From: Flavihumibacter petaseus NBRC 106054
Lineage (GTDB): Bacteria > Bacteroidota > Bacteroidia > Chitinophagales > Chitinophagaceae
Assembly (NCBI RefSeq): GCF_000974785.1
Contig: NZ_BBWV01000003.1
Span: 372,001-436,000, forward strand
Direction of reading: 5' to 3'
Length of the DNA stretch: 64,000 nucleotides
The notes beneath the pieces were generated by a model. The model was not told where the DNA came from. It was given only the letters and a program-made list of their open reading frames with translations, and did not search any database. Shown here piece by piece: positions 11,289 to 57,554 of the stretch (position 1 is its first letter; the number at the start of each line of letters is the position of its first letter). The translations under genes and the position numbers were made by a program.

Positions 11289-11305
11289 GTTCTAAAGTTA
11301 TGCTA

Positions 11306-11313
11306 TAGCTTTG
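11306..11313 (+). promoter_or_regulatory. -7 promoter box directly before yggS
   Basis: TAGCTTTG is a perfect TAnnTTTG and ends only four bases before the ATG at 11318. If it is used, the transcript would have almost no 5' leader. Confidence 0.42.
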
Positions 11314-11317
11314 TTTC

Positions 11318-11968: not shown

Positions 11969-11970
11969 AG

Positions 11971-12645: not shown

Positions 12646-12811
12646 GGCGGTTAATTTTTCTCAAAGCTGGCAGATCCCGGGCGGCCGGGAAAATTGTTTA
12701 CACGCCCGGAGGGTATTTGTTGACGAATGGATATTGCTGCAGTTGGTCAAGCATTCAGTGCCGGTTGTGGAATATTGTTTGCGACCTGCAATTCGTACCT
12801 TTAATTCGGGC

Positions 12812-39038: not shown

Positions 39039-39525
39039 AATTATTGGATTGTACTTACAAAATACAAACTGGCTAAACCCAAATACTATGCCATAATGTT
39101 CCAACACTACAAACGTTGATAACTTTCCTCGACGCGGCAAGGAAAATCCTCAAAGTCTCATCAGGTACGGGTTGTGGCCATTTTTTGTCAATTATAGACA
39201 ACTGGAAATCACACAATAGTATAACAGATTCGGGCGCCTTTTATTGTGGAAAAGAAGGCATTCAGAAAACATATTATTAAAGCATAAGTCATTGGATTTA
39301 CTAATCCTGAACATTATCTTTGTCCCACCTCCCTGATTAGTAATCCGATATCTTTTTTTAAACCCCAGGATTTTTAATATCCACAATTCTTTCGGTTAAA
39401 AGGCGTTAAGAACTGGACCTGTAGTTTTTACGAATGTTTTTTAATGTAAATGGGTAGAAATACTAGGCGCATTTCCTAGGAAAATCGGAAGAATAAATGA
39501 ATTTCCAATATACAACGGACTGTCT
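39039..39525. other. 487-base gap: divergent leader between the lyase-like gene and the EPS operon
   Basis: No gene was recognised; a 64-codon minus-strand frame at 39192-39386 has no family character. The gap is AT-rich and holds a candidate EPS promoter (39292-39322). The roughly 190-base leader after it contains a short inverted repeat CTAGG-N7-CCTAG (39463-39479). Such a leader is a natural place for action by an UpxY-type antiterminator. Confidence 0.5.
39292..39322 (+). promoter_or_regulatory. candidate promoter of the EPS operon
   Basis: TTG (39292-39294), 20 bases, then TATCTTTG (39315-39322), an exact -7 box. The start of the first EPS gene is at 39526, giving a leader near 195 bases, much longer than others in the window. 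Confidence 0.5.
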
Positions 39526-43335: not shown

Positions 43336-44688
43336 ATGAAATCGCAAATTCCTATTCTGATCCTCCTCGGATTGATTGCCCTTTTCCCTGTATTGGTTTT
43401 CAGGGCAAAAGACGACAATAAGAACAAGGTGTATCTCGCCTATGTGCTGCTGATTCTTCCGTATATGAGCTTCGATCTCATGCCCGGTCTTGAGGAGTTT
43501 ACAGTATTTGACCTGTTGTCATGGAGCTATTTCTTTGTGTTCCTGTTTTATAACCGGCCGGGAAGGAATTCCATTTTCGGATTACTGGGGTACGCTGTCC
43601 TGATCATACTGCTCATCGGTGTATTCAACAGCGACTTTTTCTGGCGATCCATGATGAGTTACTTACGCTTCGTTTCAGTCATCATCTTCGCAAAGGTCCT
43701 GTTGACGGAACTGAAAGAAGATCCTGACTTTTTTATGCAGCTGATGAGGATGTTGAAAATTGTGTTGCTGGTCGCACTTATTTTTATGGGCCTTCAGATG
43801 ATTTTTGGTGTAAAAATCAGTGTGACGTTCAGTTTTCTCTCTGGCAACTTCATGAATCCCAATATCGACACTATCGAAGGAATTCGTTATCCCAGTTATT
43901 TTCAGGATCCGCAGAAGTTTGCCCAGTTTATTGCCGCATTAAGTTTTGTTTTCCTGATCTACGACAAAAAACGGTCCAAAGCACTCTGGCTCAACCTATT
44001 GCTATTCCTGGTAGCAGTGGTGTCTTTGTTTCTTACCGGAGGACGCGGAGGTTTACTTGGATTGGTAATCGGGTTGGGATTTCTGTACCTTTTCTTTCCG
44101 ATGCGGTACAAACTGCTGTTTGCAGTACCAGTCGTATTGCTGTTTATGGTTATATCGCTGTATAAGCAGAATTTCGTCATGTTCAACCGGCAGACCGATA
44201 CCAACTCTGCCCTGGACGAAAGAACTGGTTTCTGGCTGGATGCACTGACCATTTACAACAAGCACCCTTTAATGGGAATTGGTGTAGGCAACTATCAACT
44301 CTATACTGAAAGATACAAGCCGGATAATTACTGGTACGCACAGGATGAGATCACATTTTTTGATCAGCCGGAAAGCGGCTACCTGAAGTACCTGATCGAG
44401 TTCGGCCTGTTTGGGTTCACCGTCTTTATATTGTTTCTTATAATACCACTTGTCAGGTCAGTTTACCTTTACCTGGTCGGTGTGAAAGACGAGCGGCTGC
44501 TGATTCTCGTGGCGTCACCACTAAGCTGGATGATAGGATTCATCACAGTTTGCTCGCTTACCGATGTTCGCATTTTTATTGTTGTTACTTCACTTACCTG
44601 CGCTTTGATTCATGTGATGCAACAGGCAGACAAAAGTCTGGCAGAAAGAGAAGCGCATTTACCATATGGAAAAAACGCAATCGCTTAA
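43336..44688 (+). CDS. O-antigen ligase/Wzy-type polymerase
   Basis: This is a multi-spanning membrane protein of the O-antigen ligase/polymerase family, expected to join lipid-linked repeat units in the periplasm. The 450-residue product has about 11-12 hydrophobic segments and the typical large periplasmic loop. That loop carries RYPSYFQDPQKFAQFIAAL, the GGRGGLLGLVIG segment before a helix, and NKHPLMGIGVGNYQLY. Neighbouring Wzx and Wza/Wzc make the polymerase role more likely than ligase. Its end overlaps the Wzx gene by 23 bases. Confidence 0.85.
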   Translation: MKSQIPILILLGLIALFPVLVFRAKDDNKNKVYLAYVLLILPYMSFDLMPGLEEFTVFDLLSWSYFFVFLFYNRPGRNSIFGLLGYAVLIILLIGVFNSDFFWRSMMSYLRFVSVIIFAKVLLTELKEDPDFFMQLMRMLKIVLLVALIFMGLQMIFGVKISVTFSFLSGNFMNPNIDTIEGIRYPSYFQDPQKFAQFIAALSFVFLIYDKKRSKALWLNLLLFLVAVVSLFLTGGRGGLLGLVIGLGFLYLFFPMRYKLLFAVPVVLLFMVISLYKQNFVMFNRQTDTNSALDERTGFWLDALTIYNKHPLMGIGVGNYQLYTERYKPDNYWYAQDEITFFDQPESGYLKYLIEFGLFGFTVFILFLIIPLVRSVYLYLVGVKDERLLILVASPLSWMIGFITVCSLTDVRIFIVVTSLTCALIHVMQQADKSLAEREAHLPYGKNAIA

Positions 44689-46129
44689 GGCGGGGAAGAA
44701 GGTCGTATCCAACAGCCTCTGGGGTATTGGATCAAATATTCTTCAGAATGTATTTCTCGGGCTGTTCTTTGTGATCATTGCCCGGCAATATAGTAAAGCG
44801 GATTTTGCTGACTATATCGTTGCCAATAATGCCTACCAGCTTGTTGCTGCGTTCTCTACTATGGGACTTGGGCAGTGGTTCACCCGCGAAATGGTCAATG
44901 CAAAGAGCCGGGAAGCCACTGTAAACACATTTCTGAAATTACAGCTGATACTTGGTGTGGTATTTTATGTGGTGAACATGATTTTTGTATTTGCCATGTA
45001 TAAGGATCCACTCATCAGGAGTATTTCGGTGTACGTTGGTATAAATATTCTTTTCGACAACATTATCTACGCTCTTAAAAGCCTGAATGTAGCCGAGCAC
45101 AAACAAAAAAAGAACTTTCAGATTCTGTTGATTGAAGCAAGCCTGAAACTCCTGCTTGGTGTGGTGCTGATTTTTCAGTCTTTTTCAATTGTATATCTTT
45201 CTGTATTTGCGATTGTTTTCAGATTTCTTACGCTCAACCTTTTCCTGCGGATCGGTGCTTCAAATCTGGTTTCGCTTACCGGGCTTATCCGGCAACGCAT
45301 TACCAGGAGTGACTTCAAGAACATTGTATTTGCCAATTGGGCCTTCATTGTTATCGGGTCGATTTCAGTAGTTTACTGGAGCATCGGGAAACTTATTATC
45401 TCCAAGACGCTATCGGATGCGGATATTGCGAATTATGAAATTGCGTTCAAGTTGTTTTCTATTTCTCAGATCATTCCAGTGATCATTTCAACGACGGTAT
45501 TTCCCATTCTTGTCACTTACTTTAAAAACAATGATATACCCGGTTTCAGGAGGTTTTATCAGAATGTGTTTTTCATTTATTTCCTGTTTGGCCTGGTAAC
45601 CTATACGTTTATTTACTCTTTTGCTGATATCTTGTTGCCATTTGCCTTTGGTGCCAAATACGGCGGAACCACGGAGCCTACGCAGATGATGTTTCTGACC
45701 ATTTTACTTTTCCCTACGGCTTTGTTGCAGGCCAATGTGCTGGTGGCTATGAAGCTGGAAAAACTGGATATGATATTGAACCTGGTAAGCCTGGTATTAA
45801 ATATTTCAATCAGTCTGATTGCCCTGCAGTTTGTGCGGTCGCTGACCGTTATCAACTTATCAATATTTGCTTCGTTTTTTGTGTTTCACCTGTTACAGGA
45901 TATTATTCTGTACAGGAAAGGAATGACTGATTCGAAACATATATTCCTTTTTTATTCCGGATCCATAGTTTTTATTTCTGCCTATATCGCGCTTCAGCCA
46001 TTTGTTCATCCCGTTGTTTACTTTGTTTTGGTATGGTTGCTTGTAGGCTTTTTTGCCATCCGTTATCTGCAGAAACACATGGATCCCGATTTGCTGCCCT
46101 GGAAGAAAAAAGCGGCTACTGCCCGATAA
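44666..46129 (+). CDS. Wzx-type polysaccharide flippase
   Basis: This is a MOP-superfamily lipid-linked oligosaccharide flippase that turns completed repeat units across the inner membrane. The 487-residue protein has about 12-14 membrane helices. It opens with a short charged N-terminus and SNSLWGIGSNILQNVFLGLFF, typical of the polysaccharide synthesis (Wzx/RfbX) family. Overlap with the Wzy gene (23 bases) shows tight coupling of polymerisation and translocation genes. Confidence 0.9.
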   Translation: MEKTQSLKAGKKVVSNSLWGIGSNILQNVFLGLFFVIIARQYSKADFADYIVANNAYQLVAAFSTMGLGQWFTREMVNAKSREATVNTFLKLQLILGVVFYVVNMIFVFAMYKDPLIRSISVYVGINILFDNIIYALKSLNVAEHKQKKNFQILLIEASLKLLLGVVLIFQSFSIVYLSVFAIVFRFLTLNLFLRIGASNLVSLTGLIRQRITRSDFKNIVFANWAFIVIGSISVVYWSIGKLIISKTLSDADIANYEIAFKLFSISQIIPVIISTTVFPILVTYFKNNDIPGFRRFYQNVFFIYFLFGLVTYTFIYSFADILLPFAFGAKYGGTTEPTQMMFLTILLFPTALLQANVLVAMKLEKLDMILNLVSLVLNISISLIALQFVRSLTVINLSIFASFFVFHLLQDIILYRKGMTDSKHIFLFYSGSIVFISAYIALQPFVHPVVYFVLVWLLVGFFAIRYLQKHMDPDLLPWKKKAATAR

Positions 46130-46172: not shown

Positions 46173-47348
46173 ATGGTCGTACTGTATTATGCCGGAGCAT
46201 CCTATCTGGATTCTGCCATCGAAGTGATCAACCAGATCAAGCACGAGGTGGAATTGCATGTTGTGATCGAAATCGCTCCGGAATCAAAAACCACCAATAT
46301 CCTTGACGTTAAATCCCTGGAGGGGTTGCCGGTTCTGGCAAAACCAGAAGAAGTATTGGATGAGGTTACGCTTCGCTTTTTCCAGCCATACTGGGAAGGT
46401 GCAGCGTCAGTTCGTTTCTTCGTTCAGCAACATCCCCGTACTTTCAGCTGGCAAAGCTGGAAGGATTGCCAGGTACTGGCGCGCCATATGAAAAAGACTG
46501 GCGCGCAACTGATTCATTTTGATACTGTCAAGGCCCGTGCTTTAGGCCTCCTGCCATTTTTATACAGGCATTACAGGAAGAAGATCGCCATCACTATTCA
46601 CGATCCTGCGCCACACTCCGGCGAATTCAACTGGCGGAATGTTCTTGTAAAAAAAGGATTTTTCCCTCTTGCCAAAGTATTCCTGTTTTATTCCAGATTT
46701 TCAGAAAAGACGTTTAAAGAAATTTTTCCCAACTATTCCGGAAAGACCGGCTGGATGGGTATGCATCCGTTAAGTTTCTACCGTAAATTCTGTCGTGATC
46801 AGGCAGGAGAGGGGGAAACTATTTTATTTTTTGGCAGGATTTCTCCATACAAGGGTGTGGATGTATTCCTTAAGTCAATTCCGATCGTATTGGAGAAATT
46901 CCCCCGGCAGAAATTTGTGATCGCCGGGTCCAAGAATGCAGGTTACGAATTAAGTGAAACTGATATTGCAGCAGCCGGTGAACAGCTGGAATGCAGGATA
47001 AAGTATATCTCCAACGAAGAACTTGCAGGTCTTGTTGAAGATGCCAAGCTCGTGGTGTGTCCCTATCTCGACGCTACCCAAAGCGGGGTTTTGCTGACTT
47101 CATTTGTATGTTACCGTGGGGTGATCGCCAGTGATGTAGGTGCTTTTCCGGAATTTATTGAAGAAGACAGGAACGGAACATTGGTAAAAGTGAATGATCC
47201 TGTAGCACTGGCAAATAGTATAATAGCAGCACTGGAGTCGGGGTCTTACCTGAACTGGAGCCGCTATATCAGGCAGGAAGTGGATCAGCAGCCCTGGCAA
47301 CGTTCGAGGCCGCATATTTTAGGCGCTTACCGGTCAATGGCAGTATAG
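46173..47348 (+). CDS. GT4-type glycosyltransferase
   Basis: This is a cytoplasmic GT-B glycosyltransferase adding a sugar to the lipid-linked intermediate. The 391-residue product has the C-terminal GT1 domain with TILFFGRISPYKGVDVFLKS, the donor-binding ISNEELAGLVEDAKLVVCPYLDATQSG, and a basic N-terminal half (IAITIHDPAPHSGEF). An acidic ED/EE segment in the nucleotide-sugar site fits retaining GT4 enzymes. Its stop overlaps the GTG start of the next glycosyltransferase by one base. Sugar specificity is unknown. Confidence 0.88.
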   Translation: MVVLYYAGASYLDSAIEVINQIKHEVELHVVIEIAPESKTTNILDVKSLEGLPVLAKPEEVLDEVTLRFFQPYWEGAASVRFFVQQHPRTFSWQSWKDCQVLARHMKKTGAQLIHFDTVKARALGLLPFLYRHYRKKIAITIHDPAPHSGEFNWRNVLVKKGFFPLAKVFLFYSRFSEKTFKEIFPNYSGKTGWMGMHPLSFYRKFCRDQAGEGETILFFGRISPYKGVDVFLKSIPIVLEKFPRQKFVIAGSKNAGYELSETDIAAAGEQLECRIKYISNEELAGLVEDAKLVVCPYLDATQSGVLLTSFVCYRGVIASDVGAFPEFIEEDRNGTLVKVNDPVALANSIIAALESGSYLNWSRYIRQEVDQQPWQRSRPHILGAYRSMAV

Positions 47349-48505
47349 TGGCGGAGAAACTGAGAATAATGTTATTGGTTCCCGGATTTCCGCTCAACCG
47401 GGAGGCGATTCGTGGCGGTGTTCATTCCGCTATTCTGAATCTCGCCCCTGCACTGGCTAAACAGGGTGTAACGGTGAGAATTGTATCGCTGAATCCTGCA
47501 CTCGAAAATGACACGGTTGCCCGCTGGAATGATCAGGTTGAGGTGCATTATTGCCGGATCATTAAGACTCCGGTTAAGGTGCTGGCTTACCTGATGACCG
47601 GATCGGGGATACTTCGGCGGCAGATCGACGATTTCCAACCACACCTGTTGCATTATCAGATTGGCGGTAACTTCCTGTTCACCCGGAGTTTTATCGGGAG
47701 ACGGCTGCCTTACCTGCTTACAATACATGGCATCTCCATGCAGGAGGCGAAAGTGACGAGATCATTCAGAAGGAAAATGACCTATTACTTCAATGCATGG
47801 ATTACCAGAAGAATCAGACCGGATAATATTATTCATATCTCGAACTATTCGAAGGCACTTTGTGGTGATGGTGGTAATCCGAAATTCCCGGTGATCTACA
47901 ATGCTGCCGGAGAATCCTATTTCCAGGTTACGCAGCGGGAATCTATGGGAAACCGGTTGCTGTATGTTGGGGTGGTGGATGAACGAAAGAACCTTTTGTT
48001 ACTTCTGAAGGCTATGGCAGCGCTCAAAGCCAAAGGGAAAGTATACAGGTTGACGGTTGTGGGGGGAGCCGGACAACATCCCGAATATTTTGATCTCGTC
48101 CGTTCTTACGCTGATGAAAGGCTGCAGGCTGAAGTTGACTTTATCGGCTGGCAGGAGCAACATCGATTGCCGGAACTGCTACAGCAACATGACATAATGG
48201 TGCTTCCCAGCCAGCAGGAAACTTTACCTATGTCTGTAGCGGAAGCAATGTCTGCAGGCAGGGTAGTGGTGGCCGCAAATGTAGGTGGGCTGGAAGAAAT
48301 GATCCGGCACGGAGAGACAGGCTTTCTTTTTCCATCCAATGAAGAAGGAGCACTAACGGTTATCCTTGATTCCCTTTTCGACAATACAACATTGATGCAG
48401 AACGTATCGTTACAGGCAGGCTACCTGGCCAGGCAACGGTACGACAGCAACAGGATAGCGACACAAACCATCGAGTATTATTATAAAGTTTTACACCAGT
48501 CTTGA
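47348..48505 (+). CDS. GT4-type glycosyltransferase, module 1 (GTG start)
   Basis: This is a retaining GT4-family enzyme (385 residues). The GTG at 47348 overlaps the previous stop TAG; the internal ATG at 47369 is the alternative start. Landmarks: N-terminal VPGFPLNREAIRGGVHSAIL, acceptor-side YLLTIHGISMQEAKV, NIIHISNYSK, and the C-terminal GT1 domain RLLYVGVVDERKNL, MVLPSQQETLPMSVAEAMSAGRVVVAANVGGL. It is clearly paralogous to the GT4 at 50138-51334, sharing the N-terminal GG(I/V)HSA core, the IHGI(T/S)xxEAK motif and the ETLPMxxAEAMSA donor motif. The deacetylase follows with a 4-base overlap. Confidence 0.9.
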   Translation: MAEKLRIMLLVPGFPLNREAIRGGVHSAILNLAPALAKQGVTVRIVSLNPALENDTVARWNDQVEVHYCRIIKTPVKVLAYLMTGSGILRRQIDDFQPHLLHYQIGGNFLFTRSFIGRRLPYLLTIHGISMQEAKVTRSFRRKMTYYFNAWITRRIRPDNIIHISNYSKALCGDGGNPKFPVIYNAAGESYFQVTQRESMGNRLLYVGVVDERKNLLLLLKAMAALKAKGKVYRLTVVGGAGQHPEYFDLVRSYADERLQAEVDFIGWQEQHRLPELLQQHDIMVLPSQQETLPMSVAEAMSAGRVVVAANVGGLEEMIRHGETGFLFPSNEEGALTVILDSLFDNTTLMQNVSLQAGYLARQRYDSNRIATQTIEYYYKVLHQS

Positions 48506-49365
48506 AAAAGTTGTTACGCGAAATAATCGGATTCTCCCTGGTTAAATGGTTTTTCCTGAGCAGGAAAAAACTTCACCCTGTATTGTCAGTTACCTGTCAC
48601 TATCCCTCCGTTGACATGCTCCGGAATATTATTAACCAGCTGCAAAAACATGGGTACCGGATCTGCTCCCTCGACACAGTTGCCGATCTGCTTCAGCGTG
48701 CTTCTGACAGAGAAAAGGTTGCCGTGATTACGCTGGATGATGCCTGGAACAGTAACCTGGATTTGTTGCCACTGCTGGAAGAAAGAAAAGTTCCGCTAGC
48801 CATTTTCGTTCCTACAGAACCTGTTGAAGCGGGAAATTTCTGGTGGGAATATGCCCGTAAGGCGGTTGAAGAAAATGGCAGTGAATTGCCGGACGTCAAA
48901 GCGTTCAAAAATCTCCCGGATAATGATCGCAGATCGATGGTCGACATGCTGAAAAACAGGTATTCATTGGATCGCTCCTGTGTAACCAGGCAGCAGCTGC
49001 AACAACTGAGCAGTTCTCCCTGGATTACCCTTGGTTCCCATACCGTGAATCACCCCATTTTGCACCGTTGCAGTAAGGAACAACAGGAGCGGGAACTTAT
49101 TGACAGTAAGGCTATTTTACAGGAATGGACAAATTCGCCTGTTCGCTATTTTGCTTATCCAAATGGAGACTATGATCAGGAAACCGTTGCGCTGGTGCAA
49201 AAAGCGGGCTACCGGCTGGCATTCACAGACCGGCACGGCGATATCTGCCTTCCCTGGAATAAACCACTGGAAATTCCCAGGAATTCATTGAATGAACATG
49301 GCGGGTATTATGAAAATTATGCAAAATTAATAGGCATATGGCAAAAGGTATTGGGGGAAAATTAG
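48502..49365 (+). CDS. NodB-type polysaccharide deacetylase, module 1 (TTG start)
   Basis: This is a CE4-family deacetylase predicted to remove N- or O-acetyl groups from a glycan or lipid-linked sugar. The 287-residue product appears to start at TTG (48502), overlapping the previous stop. NodB motifs: ITLDDAW (D79, D80, in place of TFDDG), the metal-binding SHTVNHP (H180, H184), and an FAYPNGDYD segment (RxPxG-like). A short hydrophobic N-terminus could anchor it at the membrane. It overlaps the GNAT gene by 28 bases, a close coupling of deacetylation with acylation. Confidence 0.85.
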   Translation: MKKLLREIIGFSLVKWFFLSRKKLHPVLSVTCHYPSVDMLRNIINQLQKHGYRICSLDTVADLLQRASDREKVAVITLDDAWNSNLDLLPLLEERKVPLAIFVPTEPVEAGNFWWEYARKAVEENGSELPDVKAFKNLPDNDRRSMVDMLKNRYSLDRSCVTRQQLQQLSSSPWITLGSHTVNHPILHRCSKEQQERELIDSKAILQEWTNSPVRYFAYPNGDYDQETVALVQKAGYRLAFTDRHGDICLPWNKPLEIPRNSLNEHGGYYENYAKLIGIWQKVLGEN

Positions 49366-50000
49366 GAGAGCGCATCAGGTTGTATGGCTTACCCACGGTG
49401 CTAAAGAGGATTGTCAAACGGGCGATGGCCAAGGCCGGCTATTACCAGGAGACCTTTTATTTTTGTTCCTTCGATCTTGCCAAAACCTACCCGGTAAAAC
49501 CTTTGCCGGAAGGTTTCTCCTACAAAGTGTTATCGTTAAATGACCTCGAACATGCTGCCGGGCTGTCGTTCAGCGACGAAAAACTTACCGTGTTCCGCGA
49601 AAGGTTTGCCAAAGATGGTTATACGGGTGTAGGGATTTTTGATGGCAAAAAACTGGTAGGTCTAGCGTGGATGTCGCTTAACCGCCTTGAAACGCCATTC
49701 CCCCAACCGGCAAATGGTTCAATCAGCCTGTCACCGGATGAGGGATACCTGCTTGATGCCTTCAGTCATCCGGATTACCGCGGGAAAGGATTCCATCCTT
49801 TTTACACGAGCTGGCGATACAACCAACTAAGGGATCTGGGTAAAAAATATGCAATCACAATTATCGACAAAGATAACCGGGCAGCGCGCACAACGCAGGC
49901 CAAAAACGGATTTGTCGCCAAAAAGAAAATAATCGCCACTAAATTCCTGGGCAACTGGAAAGTTGTTGTCAAGGAAACTTCGGAACCACTTGGATTTTAA
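49338..50000 (+). CDS. GNAT-family acyltransferase, module 1
   Basis: This is a GCN5-related N-acyltransferase of 220 residues. The acetyl-CoA site lies in AFSHPDYRGKGFHPFY (HPDYRGKG, matching Q/R-x-x-G-x-G). The conserved beta strands KKLVGLAWMSLNR and KYAITIIDKDNRAARTTQAKNGF flank it. Its overlap with a NodB-type deacetylase suggests it re-acylates the freed amine of a sugar, perhaps with a different acyl group (inference). General GNAT roles such as protein acetylation cannot be excluded by sequence alone. Confidence 0.8.
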   Translation: MAKGIGGKLGERIRLYGLPTVLKRIVKRAMAKAGYYQETFYFCSFDLAKTYPVKPLPEGFSYKVLSLNDLEHAAGLSFSDEKLTVFRERFAKDGYTGVGIFDGKKLVGLAWMSLNRLETPFPQPANGSISLSPDEGYLLDAFSHPDYRGKGFHPFYTSWRYNQLRDLGKKYAITIIDKDNRAARTTQAKNGFVAKKKIIATKFLGNWKVVVKETSEPLGF

Positions 50001-50045
50001 TATAAACCTTAACCTAAATGCCCTAATTTGGGCAGACCTGAACAG

Positions 50046-50141
50046 ATGAGTACACCTCAACCCCAAACCCCTGCACGCCGTGTAGCCAGACATCTTTTGG
50101 CTCTGACAGTCATTGAATCATCAAGCGACGACAGATCATGA
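50046..50141 (+). CDS. 31-codon ORF coupled to a glycosyltransferase
   Basis: A small open frame begins ATG at 50046 and ends TGA at 50139-50141. It encodes a polar, proline-rich N-terminus followed by an arginine/leucine-rich helix and an acidic serine tail (31 residues). The stop overlaps the next glycosyltransferase start as ATGA (50138-50141), the classical arrangement for translational coupling. It fills much of the 137-base gap between the two modules. No family is recognised. It could be a genuine microprotein, a leader controlling the downstream gene, or the remnant of a duplicated reading frame. Confidence 0.4.
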   Translation: MSTPQPQTPARRVARHLLALTVIESSSDDRS

Positions 50142-51334
50142 GGAAACCGATGCGTGTATTGTTTCTGGTGCCTGACTTTCCCGATCCTCCCGACAGGATT
50201 AAGGGAGGTATTCAATCGGCTGTACTTAACCTGCTGAAAGGTTTTGAGTCATTACCCATTGACGTTAAAGTAGTGTCCATTTCGCGCGATACCGACAACG
50301 AATATCGCAGACAGCTATATAGCAACGTGGAAGTGATTTATGTTCCGGAAGGACCTGCGCCGCTATCATTTGTCAACTATTTTCTCCACTGTTCACGCGC
50401 TGTAAGGAATATCATTAAGGAATATAAGCCAGACATCATTCATTTTGAAGAAGGAATGAACTTCCTGCTGATCCGGTTCTTTGCACACAAGCGGTATAAG
50501 CATGTGCTTACCATACACGGTATCACATTTGCGGAAGCAAAGCTCAAGAAATACTGGAAGCAGCGGATGAAATGGTACATGAACGGAATCGTGGAAAGAG
50601 TCATGCTCCCTCCGCATGTCATTCATATTTCCAAATATTCGAAAAATATTTTCTCCAGGCTGATCCGCGAGAAAGCCCCGATCATATTTAATGCAGTAGG
50701 TAACAGTTATTTTCCCATTCCTGAATTAAAGGCGACTGGTAACAGGCTGCTGTATGTGGGCGTTATCAACCGCAGGAAAAACCTCATGTCGCTGTTGAAA
50801 GTGCTCGATCGCCTGCAACAGAAAGGCTGTGCCTTCACGCTGGATATTGTGGGAGACTTTGACGAAAGTGAAAAGTACCGCGAAGAAGTTTTGCCGTTTG
50901 TGGCTGCCCGGGGACTCTCCCAGCGGGTTAATTTCCTGGGATGGAAAACACAGGAGGATCTCATAGAATTATATACAAATCATGATATCGTGGTATTACC
51001 ATCCCTGCAGGAAACACTTCCTGTTGTAATTGCGGAAGCGATGTCTGCTGCAAGGGTTATGGTGACCACAGACGTTGGCGGCATTCCCGAAATGATTGAT
51101 CACGGGAAAGACGGTTTTATTTATCAAAAACATCAGGAAGATCAACTGGAAGGTATCCTGATGGAACTGTTCAATAACCATGAACTCGTGAGCGAAGTTG
51201 GCGCAGCTGCCCGTCGCTCAGCAAACCGGAAATTCCATTGCCGCGTAATAGCCGAAAAAACGTTCAATTACTACCAACTGCTTCACCTGTCTGAATCAGG
51301 TGAAAGCGAATCAGTTTTCAATCCATCAGTTTAA
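50138..51334 (+). CDS. GT4-type glycosyltransferase, module 2
   Basis: This is a retaining GT4 glycosyltransferase of 398 residues, paralogous to the one at 47348-48505. Shared segments include VPDFPDPPDRIKGGIQSAV, HVLTIHGITFAEAKL, VIHISKYSK, RLLYVGVINRRKNL and VVLPSLQETLPVVIAEAMSA. The two differ enough to be functionally separate copies, not a recent duplication. It starts with ATGA overlap to the 31-codon ORF and is followed five bases later by an acyltransferase-like gene. Confidence 0.9.
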   Translation: MRKPMRVLFLVPDFPDPPDRIKGGIQSAVLNLLKGFESLPIDVKVVSISRDTDNEYRRQLYSNVEVIYVPEGPAPLSFVNYFLHCSRAVRNIIKEYKPDIIHFEEGMNFLLIRFFAHKRYKHVLTIHGITFAEAKLKKYWKQRMKWYMNGIVERVMLPPHVIHISKYSKNIFSRLIREKAPIIFNAVGNSYFPIPELKATGNRLLYVGVINRRKNLMSLLKVLDRLQQKGCAFTLDIVGDFDESEKYREEVLPFVAARGLSQRVNFLGWKTQEDLIELYTNHDIVVLPSLQETLPVVIAEAMSAARVMVTTDVGGIPEMIDHGKDGFIYQKHQEDQLEGILMELFNNHELVSEVGAAARRSANRKFHCRVIAEKTFNYYQLLHLSESGESESVFNPSV

Positions 51335-51338
51335 GATA

Positions 51339-52085
51339 ATGCTTACGATTCGTAAAAGGTTCACCTTTATCGAGGTGATCGAACATTGGTATCAATGTCA
51401 GTACAAATGGCCGGAGTTGTTGGGACTTACAGCGTATCTGCATGTTAAAAATGATGTCCCCCAACCACCGATGACTATTTTAAAGGAGAACTTTACTATT
51501 GAAAACAACCTGACGCTTTCCGAAGATCAGATTTTTGAAGCTTTCAGCAAGCAATTCCGGAACCAGATCCGGCAGGCTGAACGCGAGGGTGTAACCTGTT
51601 ATTTCCGGAAAGATATACCCCGGTTCGTGGAATTTTTCAATGATTTTGCCAGGTCAAAAGGTATCAATACCACCAGTGTCAGGCGCCTGGAAGAAATGGG
51701 TGACGGGTTGTTCCTGAGCTTTGCAGAACTCGACGGCAAACTCCTGGCGGCCCATAGTTACCATTTTGACAAGGCAACCGGTGTGGTCAGGACTTTTCAA
51801 AGTGCTTCTATCAGAATGGAAGACAGCGGTTTAGATAAGAATCTGATTGGGAAAGCCAATAAATTGCTGCATTACCGGGACATGATCCACCTGAAAAGCC
51901 TGGGCGCCCATATTTACGATTTTGGCGGATACGCCGGAGATAAGGATAAAAGAAACCTCAAAGGTATTGACGATTTCAAACTAAGTTTCGGTGGAGAAGT
52001 GGTTACCTGCAGAAATTATTATTCAATTCCGTATTTTATATTCAGATCGGCAGCAGATAAACTGAACCTGCTGGGTCATGGTTAA
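51339..52085 (+). CDS. GNAT/FemAB-like acyltransferase, module 2
   Basis: This is a 248-residue protein with an acyltransferase-like fold. I start it at 51339, just after the GT4 stop at 51334; the longer frame from 51300 would overlap it. The segments LAAHSYHFDKATGVVRTFQSAS and ANKLLHYRDMIHLKSLGAHIYDFGGY resemble GNAT and FemA/B-type acyl- or aminoacyltransferases. The homology is too faint to name a substrate. Position and partners suggest N-acylation of a sugar on the growing glycan. It precedes a NodB-like protein by six bases. Confidence 0.65.
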   Translation: MLTIRKRFTFIEVIEHWYQCQYKWPELLGLTAYLHVKNDVPQPPMTILKENFTIENNLTLSEDQIFEAFSKQFRNQIRQAEREGVTCYFRKDIPRFVEFFNDFARSKGINTTSVRRLEEMGDGLFLSFAELDGKLLAAHSYHFDKATGVVRTFQSASIRMEDSGLDKNLIGKANKLLHYRDMIHLKSLGAHIYDFGGYAGDKDKRNLKGIDDFKLSFGGEVVTCRNYYSIPYFIFRSAADKLNLLGHG

Positions 52086-52091
52086 CGCGTC

Positions 52092-53210
52092 ATGAAAATG
52101 GCAAAGAAATTCTGTATACTCCTCGAGGATGACTGGGAAGTTATGGGTAACGGATTGGGTAATGTTGCCCAACTCCAATACCTCCCTTCACTATTCCTCA
52201 TGAAAACACTCAAAAAACTGGGTGGTACGATGACCTTTATGGTTGATGTCGTACATCAGCTCAGGTACCTTCAGTCAGACATCAGTGACAGGAATCTCCG
52301 CATGCAATCACGCATCTGGGAAGAAAATGTACTACTGATGAAAGACTATGGTTTCGATGTTCAGCTGCACCTGCATCCACAGTGGTTTGAAGCTGTACGT
52401 ACCGGCGATCACTTCCTGCTGGGTAATAACTGGAATATCGGAAGATACGCCCCTGAGTTGCAGCGGAAGATGATTTCCGAAGGCATCGACTACCTCGAAA
52501 ACCTGATCCGGCCCCATTATCCTGATTATAAGGTCATCGCCTTTAAAGGCGGAAGCTGGGGCCTCCAGCCATCAGAAACCTTATTTCAGGCAATGGCCGA
52601 TAAGGGAGTAAGAATAATCATGGGTGTTAGGAATGGTCTCCGGCTGCCCAATAGCGGTACCGACTACAGTAATATCGAGGAAAAGATCATGCCCTATTAT
52701 GCAGATCCTTCAGATATCCGGAAGGTAAGTCGCAAAAAAGAGGATATCGTGATTGTTCCTCAGCCGGAATACGCGCCGAGCATCTTCCCCATGATCTCGC
52801 TCGGCATAGATCTGGTGAAGCAAAAATTGATTGGCCGGGATGATACGGCATGGTATTACCAGGAACCCATACCTGCAACAATAAAATCCCTTTCCCCACT
52901 GATGGACGAAAAGAAAATGCAGTTCAGCTGGAATCCCTACCGTACTCACCTGAAGATCGGAAACCAGCCTTTTTACTATCTTAAGTCATCTATTGATTCC
53001 ATCATCAAACGACTGCGGGATTATCCGGAACGAAGAATTCCACTTGTCATGGAGTCCCATACCAAACAATTTCTGGCACATTATAAACATATTGAGGCAT
53101 TCCTGAAATATATCCTGGATGCCTACGGGGATGAGGTGGAATTCCTTACCCTTTCACAATACTATCGCGAACTGCAACAGGACCCGACGGTGATCCGTCA
53201 AAAAAACTAG
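52092..53210 (+). CDS. divergent NodB-like deacetylase, module 2
   Basis: This 372-residue protein shares the polysaccharide deacetylase fold but with altered motifs. LLEDDWEVMG (D13-D14) replaces TFDDG, QLHLHPQW (H93, H95) takes the place of the metal-binding H-x-x-x-H, and FKGGSWG stands for the RxPxG loop. The alpha/beta barrel pattern and the C-terminal VMESHTKQFLAHY are otherwise consistent. Deacetylase activity is plausible but unproven, because the metal ligands differ from the canonical set. It ends four bases before the MBOAT gene. Confidence 0.65.
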   Translation: MKMAKKFCILLEDDWEVMGNGLGNVAQLQYLPSLFLMKTLKKLGGTMTFMVDVVHQLRYLQSDISDRNLRMQSRIWEENVLLMKDYGFDVQLHLHPQWFEAVRTGDHFLLGNNWNIGRYAPELQRKMISEGIDYLENLIRPHYPDYKVIAFKGGSWGLQPSETLFQAMADKGVRIIMGVRNGLRLPNSGTDYSNIEEKIMPYYADPSDIRKVSRKKEDIVIVPQPEYAPSIFPMISLGIDLVKQKLIGRDDTAWYYQEPIPATIKSLSPLMDEKKMQFSWNPYRTHLKIGNQPFYYLKSSIDSIIKRLRDYPERRIPLVMESHTKQFLAHYKHIEAFLKYILDAYGDEVEFLTLSQYYRELQQDPTVIRQKN

Positions 53211-53214
53211 CCCT

Positions 53215-54642
53215 ATGTTATTCAATTCTATGGAGTTTTTGTTCTACTTTATAGTAGTAACAAGTTTATACTTCCTGCTGCCACATCGCTTCCGCTGGAT
53301 GCTCTTGCTGTTTGCAAGCTGTTATTTCTACATGGCTTTTGTGCCGGTGTACATCCTGATTCTCGGGTTTACCATAGTGATCGATTATTTCGCAGGTATT
53401 TTTCTCGAAGAGGCCCGTGGCCGGAAACGAAAGGTCTGGCTGATAGCTAGTCTTGTCGCCAACATCGGCGTACTGGCAGTTTTCAAGTACTACAACTTCC
53501 TGAATGACAACCTTACCACACTTTTGCACGGAGTTGGCTGGAACAACCCTGTCCCTTATTTGAAGATTCTGTTGCCGATCGGCCTTTCTTTCCACACCTT
53601 TCAGGCAATGAGTTACACGATTGAGGTATACAGAGGACACCAGAAAGCAGAAAGGAATTTTGGCATCTATGCGCTTTATGTAATGTTTTATCCGCAGCTC
53701 GTTGCCGGACCGATTGAACGGCCACAGAACCTGCTGCATCAGTTCTATGAAAAACACTCTTTCGATTACGAACGGGTGGTAGATGGCCTGAAGATCATGT
53801 TGTGGGGCTTTGTAAAGAAACTGGTGATCGCAGACCGCCTCGGTTTATACGTTGATGCAGTATACGGCAACGCTGATCAGCATTCCGGTTTGTCACTGAT
53901 TGTTGCGACCGTGTTTTTTGCATTCCAGATTTATTGCGATTTCTCGGGATACTCTGATATCGCCATTGGCTCTGCCAAAGTAATGGGCTTCACACTGATG
54001 CGAAATTTCAACCGGCCATATTTTTCAGCCAATATTTCCGAGTTCTGGAGCCGTTGGCACATATCACTTTCCACCTGGTTCAAAGACTACCTGTACATTT
54101 CCCTGGGAGGCAACAGGGTATCCATACCCCGTTGGTATTTTAACCTTTTTTTCGTATTCCTCGTCAGTGGCCTCTGGCATGGGGCGAACTGGACTTTCGT
54201 AATCTGGGGCGCATTGAATGGCTTTTATCTGGTCGCCGCACTGATCAGAAACCGCTTGTTATCGAAATGGGGCTGGAAAGAAAATGATCAGCCATCCTGG
54301 TGGATGCGCATGATCAATATAGGAATCACTTTTTTACTGACCTGTTTTGCGTGGATATTCTTCCGCGCTGCTGACCTCAATCAGGCAACACTGGTCATCG
54401 GCCGTATCTTCCGGTTCGAAAAAGGTTCCCTGTTTACTGGTAATCCCACTTTCACCTATTCCCTGTTTGCCATTGCGTTCCTGCTATTGGTGGAAGCCAA
54501 AGAGGAATATTATAAAGGTTCCTTTACCCTCATTGATAACAAAAGCCCACTCGTACGTTACAGCACCTATCTCGCATTGATCCTGTTGATCCTGCTGATT
54601 GGCGTATTTGATGGTGGTCAATTTATTTATTTCCAATTCTGA
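53215..54642 (+). CDS. MBOAT-family O-acyltransferase (AlgI-like)
   Basis: This is a multi-spanning membrane O-acyltransferase that passes acetyl (or another acyl) groups across the inner membrane to an extracytoplasmic acceptor. The 475-residue protein has the AlgI/DltB-like core: VAGPIERPQNLL, the PYFSANISEFWSRWHISLSTWFKDYLYI segment, and the catalytic histidine H322 in SGLWHGANWTFVIWG. The adjacent SGNH gene, four bases away, makes an AlgI/AlgJ-type acetylation pair. The target is presumably the polysaccharide of this locus (inference). Confidence 0.92.
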   Translation: MLFNSMEFLFYFIVVTSLYFLLPHRFRWMLLLFASCYFYMAFVPVYILILGFTIVIDYFAGIFLEEARGRKRKVWLIASLVANIGVLAVFKYYNFLNDNLTTLLHGVGWNNPVPYLKILLPIGLSFHTFQAMSYTIEVYRGHQKAERNFGIYALYVMFYPQLVAGPIERPQNLLHQFYEKHSFDYERVVDGLKIMLWGFVKKLVIADRLGLYVDAVYGNADQHSGLSLIVATVFFAFQIYCDFSGYSDIAIGSAKVMGFTLMRNFNRPYFSANISEFWSRWHISLSTWFKDYLYISLGGNRVSIPRWYFNLFFVFLVSGLWHGANWTFVIWGALNGFYLVAALIRNRLLSKWGWKENDQPSWWMRMINIGITFLLTCFAWIFFRAADLNQATLVIGRIFRFEKGSLFTGNPTFTYSLFAIAFLLLVEAKEEYYKGSFTLIDNKSPLVRYSTYLALILLILLIGVFDGGQFIYFQF

Positions 54643-54645
54643 GCC

Positions 54646-55611
54646 ATGGAGAAAGATCTGATCAAAAACAATCCGGTTCAAAAATTCCTGCGAAACTTTC
54701 TCTTATTTCTTTTTCTGCTTGTGATAGCTGATTTTGCTGTAGGATTCCTGCTGCGTAAATTTTATTTTTCACAGGAGAGCGGATTGGAAGCCAGGACTAT
54801 CTATGCGATTGATAAAGCCAATGAAGAACTGATCGTGCTGGGGTCTTCGAGAGCGAGCCATCACTATGTGCCTGCCATCATTGGTAAGGAACTAAACATG
54901 AGTGCTTATAACGCAGGTCGGGAGGGAAATTTCATCCTCTATCACAACGCCGTTTTGCAGTGTATGATCCAACGGTATCACCCCAAAGTGGTGGTATTGG
55001 ATTTGCTGAACAAAGAGTTTTCAGTAAACCGCGAGAGTTATGACCGGCTGGCAACGTTGATGCCGTTTTACCGGAATCACGAAGCCATCCGACCGATCAT
55101 CAATTTGCGCGGGCCATTCGAACCAATTAAAAACCTTAGCGCCATCTATCCGTATAATTCGAAGCTTCAAGCAATAGCCATGGGAAATCTTGAGCTGAAT
55201 AAAAGCCGCAAACAGGATTTTGGCGGCTATATTCCATTGGAACGTGTAATGAAACGACCTGCGGATTCAGTTGCTGTGGAAGGAGAATATCCTATCGATA
55301 CCATCAAGGTGGAAGCTTTCCGGCAACTGGTAAAAACTTGTTCAGCCAGCAATATCCGCCTCTTTGTGATTTGTTCCCCGTATTATGATTATCTCCGTGC
55401 CGAAGACCCGAGCGTCAGAATTGCCCGCCAGATAGCTGCGGAATATAGTATTCCGTTCTGGGACTATTCGGTTGATACTACATTCACCGGTAAGGCCGAT
55501 ATTTTTGATGATAAAGCGCACCTTAACAAGGAGGGCGCAGAACGTTATTCTAAGCTGATCGCTGATAAAATCACGGCTTCAGCGGGAAGTCACGCGAGTG
55601 CAAAAAGGTAA
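54646..55611 (+). CDS. SGNH-type periplasmic acetylation partner
   Basis: This is a membrane-anchored SGNH/GDSL-fold protein of 321 residues. The N-terminus has one transmembrane helix (about 16-35), placing the catalytic part outside the inner membrane. The nucleophile motif is VLGSSRASHHY (S68 region), and the catalytic Asp-His pair lies in DDKAHLNKEG. Its pairing with the MBOAT gene resembles AlgI-AlgJ/X or WcbI-type systems in which the MBOAT supplies acyl groups and the SGNH protein transfers them to the glycan. The next gene begins four bases after its stop. Confidence 0.85.
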   Translation: MEKDLIKNNPVQKFLRNFLLFLFLLVIADFAVGFLLRKFYFSQESGLEARTIYAIDKANEELIVLGSSRASHHYVPAIIGKELNMSAYNAGREGNFILYHNAVLQCMIQRYHPKVVVLDLLNKEFSVNRESYDRLATLMPFYRNHEAIRPIINLRGPFEPIKNLSAIYPYNSKLQAIAMGNLELNKSRKQDFGGYIPLERVMKRPADSVAVEGEYPIDTIKVEAFRQLVKTCSASNIRLFVICSPYYDYLRAEDPSVRIARQIAAEYSIPFWDYSVDTTFTGKADIFDDKAHLNKEGAERYSKLIADKITASAGSHASAKR

Positions 55612-55614
55612 AGC

Positions 55615-56814
55615 ATGTCAGAAATTCATCAGCAAGCCCTTCAACGGCTTAAGACATATTGTGAGAAAGAAGGATTTCGTGGTTACGATCCCTACGATGG
55701 CCTGAACAGCAGGTTATTTCAGGCATTGCCATGGATCAGAGATCAAAAATTCTTCCGGCTCGCCTGGATCCAGGCTTTCAAAAGGTCGCCATTCAACCTT
55801 CGTTCGGTTACAGGAGTAAAAAAGGAGACCAACCCCAAGGCTTTAGGGATTTTTCTTACTGCCTACTGTCAGCTTTACCAACAACACAGGGAACCTGCTG
55901 ATCTGGGAAAAATCCGGTTTTTCATCCGTGAGATTCTTCACTTTACGAGCAAAGGGTATAGCGGAGCCTGTTGGGGATATAATTTTGACTGGCAGGCCCG
56001 GGCGTTTTTTCAACCGCGGTTTACTCCCACGATCGTTGCCTCTTCATTCATTGCCAACGCCCTGCTTGATGCTTACGAGATTACCAACGAAAACATATTG
56101 CTGGAAACAGCCAGGGGCACCTGCGATTTTATCCTGAAAGATCTTAACAGGAATGTGGATGATGAGGGGGACTTTGCTTTTTCCTATTCCAAACTTGACA
56201 CTAGTATCGTATTCAATGCTTCATTGCTCGGAAGCAGGTTACTGGCAAGGGTATATAGCTATACGCGTGAACCGGAACTGCTGGAAGCCGCCACAAGGTC
56301 CGTTGCCTTTTGTTGTAAGTATCAACAGGAGGACGGATCATGGAGTTACGGTACATATTCCTTCCACCAGTGGATTGACAGTTTTCATACCGGGTACAAC
56401 CTCGAGTGCCTGCAGGATTACGCCGATTTCACGGGCAACACAAGCTATCAGACCTACGTCGAAAAAGGTCTGGACTATTACCTGAACAATTTTTTTACTT
56501 CGGATGGTATTCCGAAATATTATAACAACAGCGTTTATCCAATAGATATTCATGCACCTGCACAATTGATCATCACCCTGATCAAACTGCGTTGTTTTGA
56601 ATCCAATAAGGCCCTCGCCGACCGTGTGCTGAACTGGACCATCAACAATATGCAGGACAAGCAAGGTTATTTCTATTTCCAGATCAACCGCTATTTCTCT
56701 TCCAGAATACCCTATATGCGCTGGTCTCAGGCCTGGATGCTTTATACCCTGGCGCTTTATGACCGAAAACTATCCCTACAGCCCGAAAAAACAATCGTGT
56801 ATGAAACGCATTAG
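55615..56814 (+). CDS. alpha/alpha-toroid (six-hairpin-like) protein of the EPS locus
   Basis: This is a 399-residue protein without a signal peptide, built of repeated helical hairpins (for example SFIANALLDAYEITNENILLE, ACWGYNFDWQARAF, YNLECLQDYADFTGNT). The pattern resembles alpha/alpha-barrel enzymes such as unsaturated glucuronyl hydrolases, AGE epimerases or heparinase-like folds. Aromatic and acidic residues along the helices fit a carbohydrate-binding groove. I cannot assign a reaction. Relatives are sometimes labelled delta-aminolevulinic acid dehydratase, which I consider unsupported. It overlaps the WecG-like gene by 14 bases. Confidence 0.65.
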   Translation: MSEIHQQALQRLKTYCEKEGFRGYDPYDGLNSRLFQALPWIRDQKFFRLAWIQAFKRSPFNLRSVTGVKKETNPKALGIFLTAYCQLYQQHREPADLGKIRFFIREILHFTSKGYSGACWGYNFDWQARAFFQPRFTPTIVASSFIANALLDAYEITNENILLETARGTCDFILKDLNRNVDDEGDFAFSYSKLDTSIVFNASLLGSRLLARVYSYTREPELLEAATRSVAFCCKYQQEDGSWSYGTYSFHQWIDSFHTGYNLECLQDYADFTGNTSYQTYVEKGLDYYLNNFFTSDGIPKYYNNSVYPIDIHAPAQLIITLIKLRCFESNKALADRVLNWTINNMQDKQGYFYFQINRYFSSRIPYMRWSQAWMLYTLALYDRKLSLQPEKTIVYETH

Positions 56815-57547
56815 TATTTGCAATATTCCGGTTGACGCCTATACCATGGAGGAAACTGTCGGACTTATCGATGATGCCCTTCAGGAAAACCGGCCAATTC
56901 ACCATGTTGTGATCAATGCCGCGAAAGTGGTTAATGCCAACAAGAATGTTGAATTAATGGATTCCATCGTTAACTGTGATATCATTAATGCAGATGGGCA
57001 GGGAGTTGTTTGGGCCAGCCGTTTTCTCAACAAACCATTGCCGGAAAGGGTGGCGGGCATAGACCTCATGGATGAGCTGATTGCGCTGGCTCATCGAAAG
57101 GGATACAAGATTTACCTGCTTGGTGCCAAAGAAGAGATTGTTTCGAAAGTTGCCCGGATACTGTCCGAGAAGTATTCACCTGATATTATCGGGGGCTACC
57201 GTAATGGGTATTACAAACCAGACGAGGAACTTGAAATCGCCAGAAGCATTGGGTCATCCGGTGCCAAGATGCTGTTTGTGGCCATCACCTCACCTAAAAA
57301 GGAAATTTTTCTCAATAAATACAAGGATGAGATCAATGTTCCGTTTATCATGGGTGTCGGTGGAAGCTTTGACGTGGTTGCAGGGTTCGTGAAAAGGGCA
57401 CCACGCTGGATGCAGGTTGCCGGTCTGGAGTGGTTTTACCGTGTGATCCAGGAACCCCGGCGCATGTGGAAGCGATACCTGGTAGGGAATATTGAATTCG
57501 GATACCTGGTAATGAAAGAAAAAATGCAGTTTAATAAAGCTAAATGA
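56801..57547 (+). CDS. WecG/TagA/CpsF-family glycosyltransferase
   Basis: This GT26 enzyme transfers a ManNAc-type sugar to lipid-linked GlcNAc or a similar acceptor on the cytoplasmic face. The start at 56801 (MKRISICNIPVDAYTMEE) sits inside the end of the previous gene; the longer frame from 56759 adds unrelated residues. The 248-residue protein has the family's NAAKVVNANKN, INADGQGVVWASR (catalytic Asp/GT26 motif), YLLGAKEEI, IIGGYRNGYY, and PFIMGVGGSFDVVAGFVKRAP. Adjacent wecB supplies UDP-ManNAc, supporting ManNAc transfer; no UDP-ManNAc dehydrogenase is present. Confidence 0.88.
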   Translation: MKRISICNIPVDAYTMEETVGLIDDALQENRPIHHVVINAAKVVNANKNVELMDSIVNCDIINADGQGVVWASRFLNKPLPERVAGIDLMDELIALAHRKGYKIYLLGAKEEIVSKVARILSEKYSPDIIGGYRNGYYKPDEELEIARSIGSSGAKMLFVAITSPKKEIFLNKYKDEINVPFIMGVGGSFDVVAGFVKRAPRWMQVAGLEWFYRVIQEPRRMWKRYLVGNIEFGYLVMKEKMQFNKAK

Positions 57548-57554
57548 CTTTGAT

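Follow-up and report, generated by a model that had tools for sequence, protein, structure and literature searches.

The N-substituents of bacterial polysaccharides affect their charge, antigenicity and enzyme resistance. To our knowledge, genes that alter such substituents after sugar transfer have seldom been recognised. In Nod-factor synthesis NodC, NodB and NodA act in succession as glycosyltransferase, CE4 N-deacetylase and N-acyltransferase, and an acetyl group is exchanged for another acyl group. The ArnA/ArnD formyl handle combines a formyltransferase with ArnD, an enzyme of the CE4 fold. For Rubrivivax gelatinosus, the part of the report available to us tabulates a locus for extracellular polysaccharide (EPS) with a UDP-GlcNAc 2-epimerase, NodB, FemAB, a group-1 glycosyltransferase and MBOAT (algI), together with orthologues from two other genomes (PMC3684757). 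The Pap cluster of Pseudomonas fluorescens F113, again as far as tabulated in the accessible part of the source, unites a GT4, a cytoplasmic polysaccharide deacetylase and a GNAT protein (PMC7716237). Here we describe a stretch of 64,000 nucleotides from Flavihumibacter petaseus NBRC 106054 (the window; NCBI RefSeq assembly GCF_000974785.1, contig NZ_BBWV01000003.1, positions 372,001 to 436,000), in which one EPS, or slime-polysaccharide, locus (39526-60040, all genes co-directional) encloses six genes of interest: two GT4 glycosyltransferases (GT4-A and GT4-B), a NodB-type deacetylase, a GNAT-type and a FemAB-like acyltransferase, and a protein that we call P372. A sequence-only reading had seen in them two parallel modules of glycosyltransferase, deacetylase and acyltransferase, derived from one ancestral module by duplication and diversification.

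We put the chances at about even that the EPS tailoring genes of this stretch form a mosaic, not a duplicated triad, and work by acetyl removal and re-substitution. The evidence favours assembly from parts and gives no support to the duplication of a three-gene module: a set typical of the genus (GT4, NodB, the FemAB-like protein, and MBOAT with an SGNH-like protein) is accompanied here by another GT4 from this genus-specific family as well as by GNAT and P372. We regard the window's gene set as drawn from a pool of tailoring genes whose combinations shift. All six reading frames that had been proposed are indeed present, at or within a few codons of where they had been placed, as open, co-directional and closely spaced frames on the + strand. 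GT4-A (47348-48505, GTG start) and GT4-B (50138-51334) both match PF00534, PF13692 and PF13439, and they are related, as the sequence-only reading held, with 151 of 386 positions identical (39%) in one end-to-end alignment. The other two supposed pairs are not recognisable paralogues: BLAST finds no similarity between NodB and P372 (best E 1.4) or between GNAT and FemAB (best E 4.2). Homology thus extends to one of the three pairs, the GT4s, and the two deacetylases have only a fold class in common.

The history of the GT4 pair also seems to point away from a local event. Their family was found in 12 of the 15 genomes of the genus (E <= 1e-25), with two copies only in the window genome; at E <= 1e-60 it occurred in 4 of 244 sampled genomes of the bacterial family, all from this genus (the sample includes 5 of the 15 genus genomes; all 15 were searched with P372 and GT4-B only). 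In a tree of 37 rows, GT4-A, GT4-B and 11 GT4s of congeners make up a genus-only group (96/99). Within it GT4-A is closest to the GT4 of congener G005 (45% identity), and the two join with support of 97/95 in 37 rows, which is starred, and of 88/92 and 90/94 in 15 and 13 rows, which are not. NodB is 47% identical to the NodB of the same congener and groups with it at 94/95, just short of a star. Since the window copies of both GT4-A and NodB fall with those of G005 in their trees, a pre-existing GT4-A–NodB pair most likely met a second GT4 lineage. Separation of the two GT4s in the trees was one expectation under which the duplication idea would fall. The best trees do separate them, but their sisterhood cannot be rejected at the 0.05 level: trees constrained to join GT4-A with GT4-B are worse by 9.9 and 11.1 log-likelihood units, with p values of the approximately unbiased (AU) test of 0.106 and 0.058 in the 15- and 13-row sets. 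A local GT4 duplication appears disfavoured on these sequences.

The genus-typical set becomes visible in the 11 congeners that carry the GT4. Each has one copy; NodB accompanies it in 8 of them and P372 in none. The FemAB-like protein has a homologue (41-48% identity) in the EPS locus of all 11, and so does the MBOAT O-acyltransferase. An SGNH-like homologue follows MBOAT in 10 of the 11, the contig of G012 ending before the SGNH position. Seven congeners (G001, G002, G003, G007, G009, G010 and G012, the last on a 5-kb contig that ends after MBOAT) share the order GT4-NodB-FemAB-MBOAT(-SGNH). G005 has FemAB-MBOAT-SGNH-GT4-NodB, and G004, G006 and G014 have FemAB-GINT1_N-MBOAT-SGNH-GT4 with no NodB in the stretch; GINT1_N was assigned by Pfam in G014 and by BLAST in G004 and G006. 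Because single-GT4 loci of congeners hold FemAB, this gene is part of the ordinary set of the genus and no copy of GNAT, and judged by the contents of these loci it is GNAT, one GT4 and P372 that are additions in the window species. An ancestral module, as had been proposed, would have to be reconciled with congeners whose single GT4 already stands with FemAB, MBOAT and mostly NodB.

In the window, NodB (48502-49365, TTG start) is a clear CE4 polysaccharide deacetylase (PF01522, 80.7 bits against a cut-off of 23.1). Its stretches LDD, SHTVNH and YPNG are conserved or nearly so in the aligned genus copies, and the metal-type motifs D-D and H-x3-H, which in NodB proteins have metal-binding roles, are present as LDDAW and SHTVNH in the window copy and as DD and HTVxH in all six aligned genus copies. 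The FemAB-like protein (248 aa) was taken to start at ATG 51339 and runs to 52085; the GTG listed at 51300 overlaps GT4-B. It matches PF02388 above the gathering score (29.2 bits against 24), with a best stretch that spans only 55 of the 406 profile positions, and the FemAB tree leaves the placement of the window copy unresolved. MBOAT (53215-54642, + strand) matches PF03062 with 92 bits and the DltB model TIGR04091 with 151 bits, below the cut-off of 375, and its SGNH-like partner (54646-55611, + strand) matches PF13472 and PF07611, both below cut-off. In congeners G014 and G004 (loci L064 and L065) two MBOAT-SGNH pairs flank the GT4, a doubled O-acylation pair.

GNAT (49338-50000) scores just below the Pfam cut-off (PF00583, E 0.0028, 18.4 bits against 20.7); an R-G-K-G stretch in it and in its aligned relatives, which we take to be the GNAT-type motif, speaks for its belonging to the GNAT superfamily. 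Its AlphaFold2 model, built from 4 sequences, was too poor (pLDDT 47.8) and was not used. There is no GNAT in the congener EPS stretches read, and the relatives in G001, G007 and G010 sit elsewhere in the genome. Across the phylum sample 26 of 395 genomes gave matches at E <= 1e-5, those below 1e-20 coming only from the window's own genome, G010, G360 and G024; contexts were read for G360 and G024 (L189, L190) and G010 (L077), the 22 weak matches being left out. GNAT relatives adjoin NodB in L138 and L142, both from Bacteroidales, where GNAT, NodB and Acetyltransf_6 stand in a row and share one EPS locus with an AAC(3)-P372 pair. In L189 and L190 they adjoin a FemAB-type or similar-sized protein: GINT1_N (by Pfam in L189, by BLAST with 33% in L190), GNAT and a protein of 321-322 aa follow each other, the last with a FemAB match in L189 (E 1.3e-4, below cut-off) and none in L190. 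A GINT1_N-type protein adjoins FemAB or GNAT in L064, L065, L070, L073, L189 and L190 (PF24793 in L064 and L189, BLAST elsewhere), and NodB was not found in the stretches of L064, L065, L070 and L073, as if the GINT1_N-type protein had replaced it.

P372 (52092-53210) belongs to a family without a Pfam or NCBIfam model. The window copy has no match in either collection and does not reach the gathering score of PF01522; among 63 members of the family that model gives 4 weak matches at E <= 0.01 (best 3.8e-4), and no NCBIfam model matches any of the 63. The AlphaFold2 model, computed with these 63 sequences (window copy included), is of high quality (pLDDT 94.2, pTM 0.93). Its best structural matches, found with Foldseek and then re-compared, are CE4-type deacetylases and their relatives: 3lm3 (Z 22.1), HP0310 (3qbu; Z 21.6, root-mean-square deviation (rmsd) 2.6 over 240 residues), 3rxz (Z 21.0), an insect chitin deacetylase (Z 18), ArnD (8t0j; Z 17.5, rmsd 3.5 over 232 residues) and NDST1 (8ccy; Z 15.3, rmsd 3.9 over 244 residues). 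Because of these matches, the former description of P372 as a divergent NodB-like protein was right at the level of the fold, while by sequence it finds no backing. GH57 chains also match, with Z up to 18.7, so the barrel is common to a wider superfamily. Nine residues are invariant in the 63 sequences (D14, E16, G19, Q91, H93, H95, W98, H323 and K325), and by secondary structure of the model they seem to fall at CE4 motifs 1, 2 and 5. The window copy reads HLHPQW (H93, H95) at motif 2 and FKGG at motif 3, where most of the family has FRAG. On its modelled fold and these residues, P372 is likely an N-deacetylase.

The gene neighbourhoods of the family give a further clue. With one peptide pattern 425 relatives were found, and the best 80 loci (L080-L159) were kept; they span Bacteroidota, Acidobacteriota, Planctomycetota, Ignavibacteriota, Pseudomonadota, Thermodesulfobacteriota and others. 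Closer to home P372 is rare, with one hit in the 15 genus genomes (the window's own) and one in 239 sampled genomes of the bacterial family at E <= 1e-10. The 80 loci hold 82 P372 genes, counting two copies each for L096 and L106 (in L106 the additional copy is part of a 941-aa open reading frame on the other strand) and including truncated genes such as that of L107. As many as 52 of the 82 directly adjoin a gene for AAC(3) (27, of which 8 on the opposite strand), a formyltransferase-like protein (13 genes with 12 partners) or a sulfotransferase (12). The two genes share a strand in 45 pairs; they overlap in 27 of these, and in 44 they either overlap or are at most 30 bp apart. These classes are rare at other positions: comparing ±1 with ±2 to 8, we counted 27/153 versus 2/765 for AAC(3), 13/153 versus 8/765 for the formyltransferase-like and 13/153 versus 6/765 for the sulfotransferase genes, with the qualification that the Fisher tests on these positions ignore relatedness and that the hidden Markov models (HMMs) of the partners were seeded from P372 neighbours and iterated. 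Pfam confirmed most of these names; at E <= 0.001 and for same-strand neighbours within 300 bp it gave AAC(3) in 15/63 cases at -1 and 3/59 at +1, sulfotransferase in 10/63 and 3/59, and formyltransferase in 9/59 at +1; the opposite-strand AAC(3) genes were confirmed in 8 of 8 cases. Other neighbours include oxidoreductases (5), methyltransferases (4) and hexapeptide proteins (3) among the 63 at -1, where a hexapeptide-type protein (L148, L150) and a GNAT (L133) also occur, and GH88-like proteins (6/59) and ketoacyl synthase III (3/59) at +1.

We call these genes formyltransferase-like on several grounds. The PF00551 cut-off is exceeded in L083, L088 and L089, while L080 (Pollutibacter soli) and L092 match the model below cut-off and L082 does not match it. 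The aligned proteins have in common N-D-H...L-P...R-G and D-x-G stretches, the former presumably a formyltransferase motif, and the HMM of this family also matches PF00551 proteins of the window's own genome. The four nearest relatives of the window's P372 (51-53% identity), all from Chitinophagales, are each directly followed by such a gene, and the window copy is sister to these four formyltransferase-linked copies in the P372 tree (SH-aLRT 97). On this tree the partner types are clustered yet switch several times, with 23 changes against a shuffled mean of 45.7 and none of 200 shuffles as low; the group without partner is, by itself, not clustered (19 changes versus 21.5). The tree was made with a quick method and SH-aLRT only, leaving out the 941-aa frame and L107; formyltransferase and AAC(3) genes at ±2 were pooled with those at ±1 (4 rows), seven opposite-strand AAC(3) rows formed their own group, and the AAC(3) of L149 was labelled as none.

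Three further arrangements were seen in P372 loci. In L096 of Maribacter flavus, one formyltransferase-like gene stands between two P372 copies (9983-13245). In seven Acidobacteriota loci (L099, L100, L102, L106, L109, L110 and L119) AAC(3) lies downstream on the strand opposite to P372 and convergent with it (Pfam, 7 of 7). In L034, L040, L113 and L116 the P372-AAC(3) loci also contain ketoacyl synthase III, short-chain dehydrogenase or AMP-ligase-like genes, mostly named by eye, and the acyl group is perhaps made on the spot.

Because 52 of the 82 genes adjoin one of these three classes, which are rare elsewhere nearby, we read the P372 family, from its sequences and contexts, as putative N-deacetylases whose interchangeable partners place a new group on the freed amine. 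Tentatively, and at somewhat less than even chances, P372 might represent a widespread, undescribed CE4-fold N-deacetylase family that forms the fixed half of exchangeable two-gene cassettes, in which the partner (formyltransferase, AAC(3)-type protein, sulfotransferase or, here, FemAB or GNAT) sets the new N-group on a lipid-linked sugar. If so, bacteria could re-dress the same backbone by swapping one gene. Should this partner rule be right, the N-group of a polysaccharide could be predicted from the gene next to the one for the P372-type protein, environmental AAC(3)-type 'aminoglycoside acetyltransferases' would be placed in polysaccharide synthesis, and natural pairs of N-deacetylase and sulfotransferase would be on offer. 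The idea of an acyl swap finds partial support in two observations: two deacetylase-plus-acyltransferase sets share an EPS locus in L138 and L142, and the partners seen beside P372 relatives are such as one would expect if acetyl were replaced by another group.

How could the six genes work together? We infer activities, substrates, place, order of steps and the pairing of acyltransferases with deacetylases as follows. The GT4s would add sugars to a lipid-linked repeat at the cytoplasmic face, an N-acetylated sugar being supplied by the WecB- and WecG-like proteins encoded downstream. NodB and P372 would each strip the N-acetyl group from one particular residue, GNAT and FemAB would re-substitute one or both of the freed amines with another acyl or an aminoacyl group, and MBOAT with its SGNH-like partner would add O-acyl groups. 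By eye NodB, GNAT, FemAB and P372 have no clear signal peptide (no predictor was run), and for this reason we provisionally assign them to the cytoplasmic face, with lipid-linked sugars as their substrates. As to which acyltransferase serves which deacetylase, the hints diverge: NodB and FemAB adjoin in seven congeners, GNAT and NodB in L138 and L142, and FemAB and P372 in the window only.

A number of observations weigh against such an exchange of N-groups in a mosaic locus. Canonical CE4 enzymes have H-x3-H in motif 2 and R in motif 3, whereas P372 has HxH and K at these places, and the deviations could mean another reaction, for example deformylation as in ArnD. The target of a sulfotransferase or AAC(3) neighbour could be a different position or sugar; matches of the formyltransferase-like genes to PF00551 are weak (the 9 of 59 downstream neighbours mentioned above); GT4 is as frequent as sulfotransferase directly upstream of P372 (10/63 each by Pfam); and 30 of the 82 P372 genes lack an adjoining gene of any of the three partner types. 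FemAB occurs without NodB in three congener loci (G004, G006 and G014) and also outside EPS loci (L075, L076), so its partnership with NodB is not obligatory. Searched with an HMM of 13 FemAB proteins from the genus and bacterial family, the 80 P372 loci gave no match (E <= 1e-4), and hence the FemAB-P372 pairing is seen in the window only. The three PF00551 proteins of the window genome all lie on other contigs and look like housekeeping proteins of PurU, Fmt and PurN type. The window's P372 thus lacks the partner usual in its branch, whether by loss or from the start. The sisterhood of the GT4s, though it seems disfavoured, survives at 0.05. A conserved FemAB-P372 pair was also considered and dropped: 203 genomes of the phylum gave 4 FemAB matches, one of them the window, and two other contexts that were read (L073, L197) show no P372. 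In L197 (7769-9570) a FemAB-like gene comes right after a ketoacyl-synthase-III-type gene (by eye), near MBOAT and WecB homologues.

Of the alternatives, the one that survives best, although we hold it to be unlikely, is an EPS with free amines: NodB and P372 would deacetylate, the amines would stay free and give a partly cationic polymer as in poly-N-acetylglucosamine (PNAG) or Pel, and GNAT and FemAB would act on other amino sugars or on precursors. The P372 genes without partner and the occurrence of FemAB without NodB agree with this, as does the fact that the NCBIfam matches of NodB are among the PdaB, PdaA, PgaB and IcaB models, all below cut-off. It has to contend with the 52 P372 genes that adjoin a class able to re-substitute an amine, and with the rarity of these classes at other positions. 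Quite improbable is the use of formyl as a temporary handle in the style of ArnA/ArnD, in which a formyltransferase would N-formylate the amino sugar before transfer and P372 would deformylate it afterwards. The match of P372 to ArnD (8t0j) and its position in the formyltransferase-linked branch would fit, but a role as deformylase leaves the pairing of the family with AAC(3) and sulfotransferase unexplained, and the locus of the window has no PF00551 protein. We give still less credit to the view that P372 and GNAT arrived recently and play no part in EPS tailoring. That neither turned up in the EPS stretches read from congeners would fit, yet their frames are intact, catalytic-type residues are conserved, spacing is tight (6 bp between FemAB and P372, 4 bp between P372 and MBOAT) and base composition resembles that of the neighbours. 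Least of all, and very improbably, an ancestral triad was duplicated within the locus with later divergence of the copies, since this story, for which the end-to-end identity of the GT4s and their unrejected sisterhood can be cited, meets deacetylases and acyltransferases that are not recognisably homologous by BLAST, congeners that carry one GT4 together with NodB and FemAB, and P372 relatives that cross phyla while none was found in the other 238 sampled genomes of the bacterial family (E <= 1e-10).

Besides the six genes and MBOAT with its partner the EPS locus contains Wza-, Wzc-, NusG-type, Wzy- and Wzx-like genes, a third GT4, a gene for an alpha/alpha-toroid protein, and WecG-, WecB- and PHPT-like genes; Pfam and NCBIfam scans covered 46173-56811, and beyond this region the names go by resemblance. 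The open reading frames at 43336-46129 (+ strand), which we take by resemblance for a Wzy-like polymerase and a Wzx-like flippase, have homologues in L070 (43% and 57%). In the first half, GT4, GT4-A, NodB and GNAT overlap, and from GT4-B to the PHPT-like gene gaps run from -56 to +7 bp. Between the two halves lies a gap of 137 bp (50001-50137), the largest between 42787 and 60040, where the remaining gaps are -56 to +43 bp. It is a possible recombination seam, and a simple scan found no promoter-like site in it. GC content of the locus genes is 0.41-0.50 with no foreign block, and no long repeat marking a recent copy was found, the longest being 29 nt at 72%.

At 56759-58652 (+ strand) follow a WecG-like transferase and a WecB-like UDP-GlcNAc 2-epimerase, both named by resemblance. 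WecB homologues occur in the stretches read of 6 congeners, a WecG homologue in one of these (G007), and each of the two has a homologue in 24 of the 80 P372 loci. The functions that we assume for these families suggest N-acetylmannosamine (ManNAc) in the repeat, and the pair is likely the source of an N-acetylated sugar such as this. The alpha/alpha-toroid protein (55615-56814) gives weak GH88, GH127 and pectate lyase matches and has homologues in 28 of the 80 P372 loci, several of them adjoining WecG. Just before the EPS locus, on the - strand (35067-39140), lies a protein of 1357 aa. Judged by eye, its N-terminal part resembles a lyase, many similar repeats of PKD type are present, and the C-terminus bears a sorting-type domain; the protein is possibly a depolymerase of the EPS. 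An exosortase-type system was considered as well: TIGR03088, TIGR04063 and TIGR03019 all scored far below cut-off, and no search was aimed at an exosortase gene.

How new, then, is this system? The logic of glycosyltransferase, deacetylase and acyltransferase is that of NodC, NodB and NodA, which already makes the 'new type' of EPS decoration claimed by the sequence-only reading an overstatement. The window differs in having a GT4 in place of a NodC-type enzyme, GNAT and FemAB in place of NodA and a repeat unit in place of an oligomer, and its swap is a proposed one. Comparable loci, as tabulated in the accessible part of the Rubrivivax report, unite epimerase, NodB, FemAB, glycosyltransferase and MBOAT just as the window does (PMC3684757). 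They are of the PEP-CTERM/XrtA type, however, and the window's FemAB reaches 29.4 bits on the XrtA-associated FemAB model TIGR03019, far below its equivalog cut-off of 260.35; moreover, the Rubrivivax locus as tabulated there has no P372 or GNAT (PMC3684757). The Pap cluster, compared by description, has one deacetylase in the table available (PMC7716237). Because like gene sets are tabulated for Rubrivivax and Pseudomonas in these partial sources, the window module has known precedents.

Like part of the P372 family, ArnA/ArnD associates a CE4-fold enzyme with a formyltransferase, and ArnD is a fold match of P372, but the partners of P372 vary among three families and the chemistry proposed for it runs the other way. 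We found no description of the P372 partner pattern in the open-licence literature searched, and the engineered heparosan N-deacetylase/N-sulfotransferase, in the part of that report available, does not concern the P372 family (PMC13353177). With the N-deacetylase/N-sulfotransferases (NDST) of heparan sulfate there is a twofold likeness: the fold of P372 matches NDST1, and 12 P372 relatives adjoin sulfotransferase genes. On the P372 side these are separate bacterial genes for which N-sulfation is proposed, and by Pfam no gene of the window module is a sulfotransferase. We consider the partner rule seen around P372 relatives a more interesting find than the window module itself, and if the cassette reading is true, its P372-sulfotransferase version would be a bacterial two-gene counterpart of the heparan sulfate NDST.

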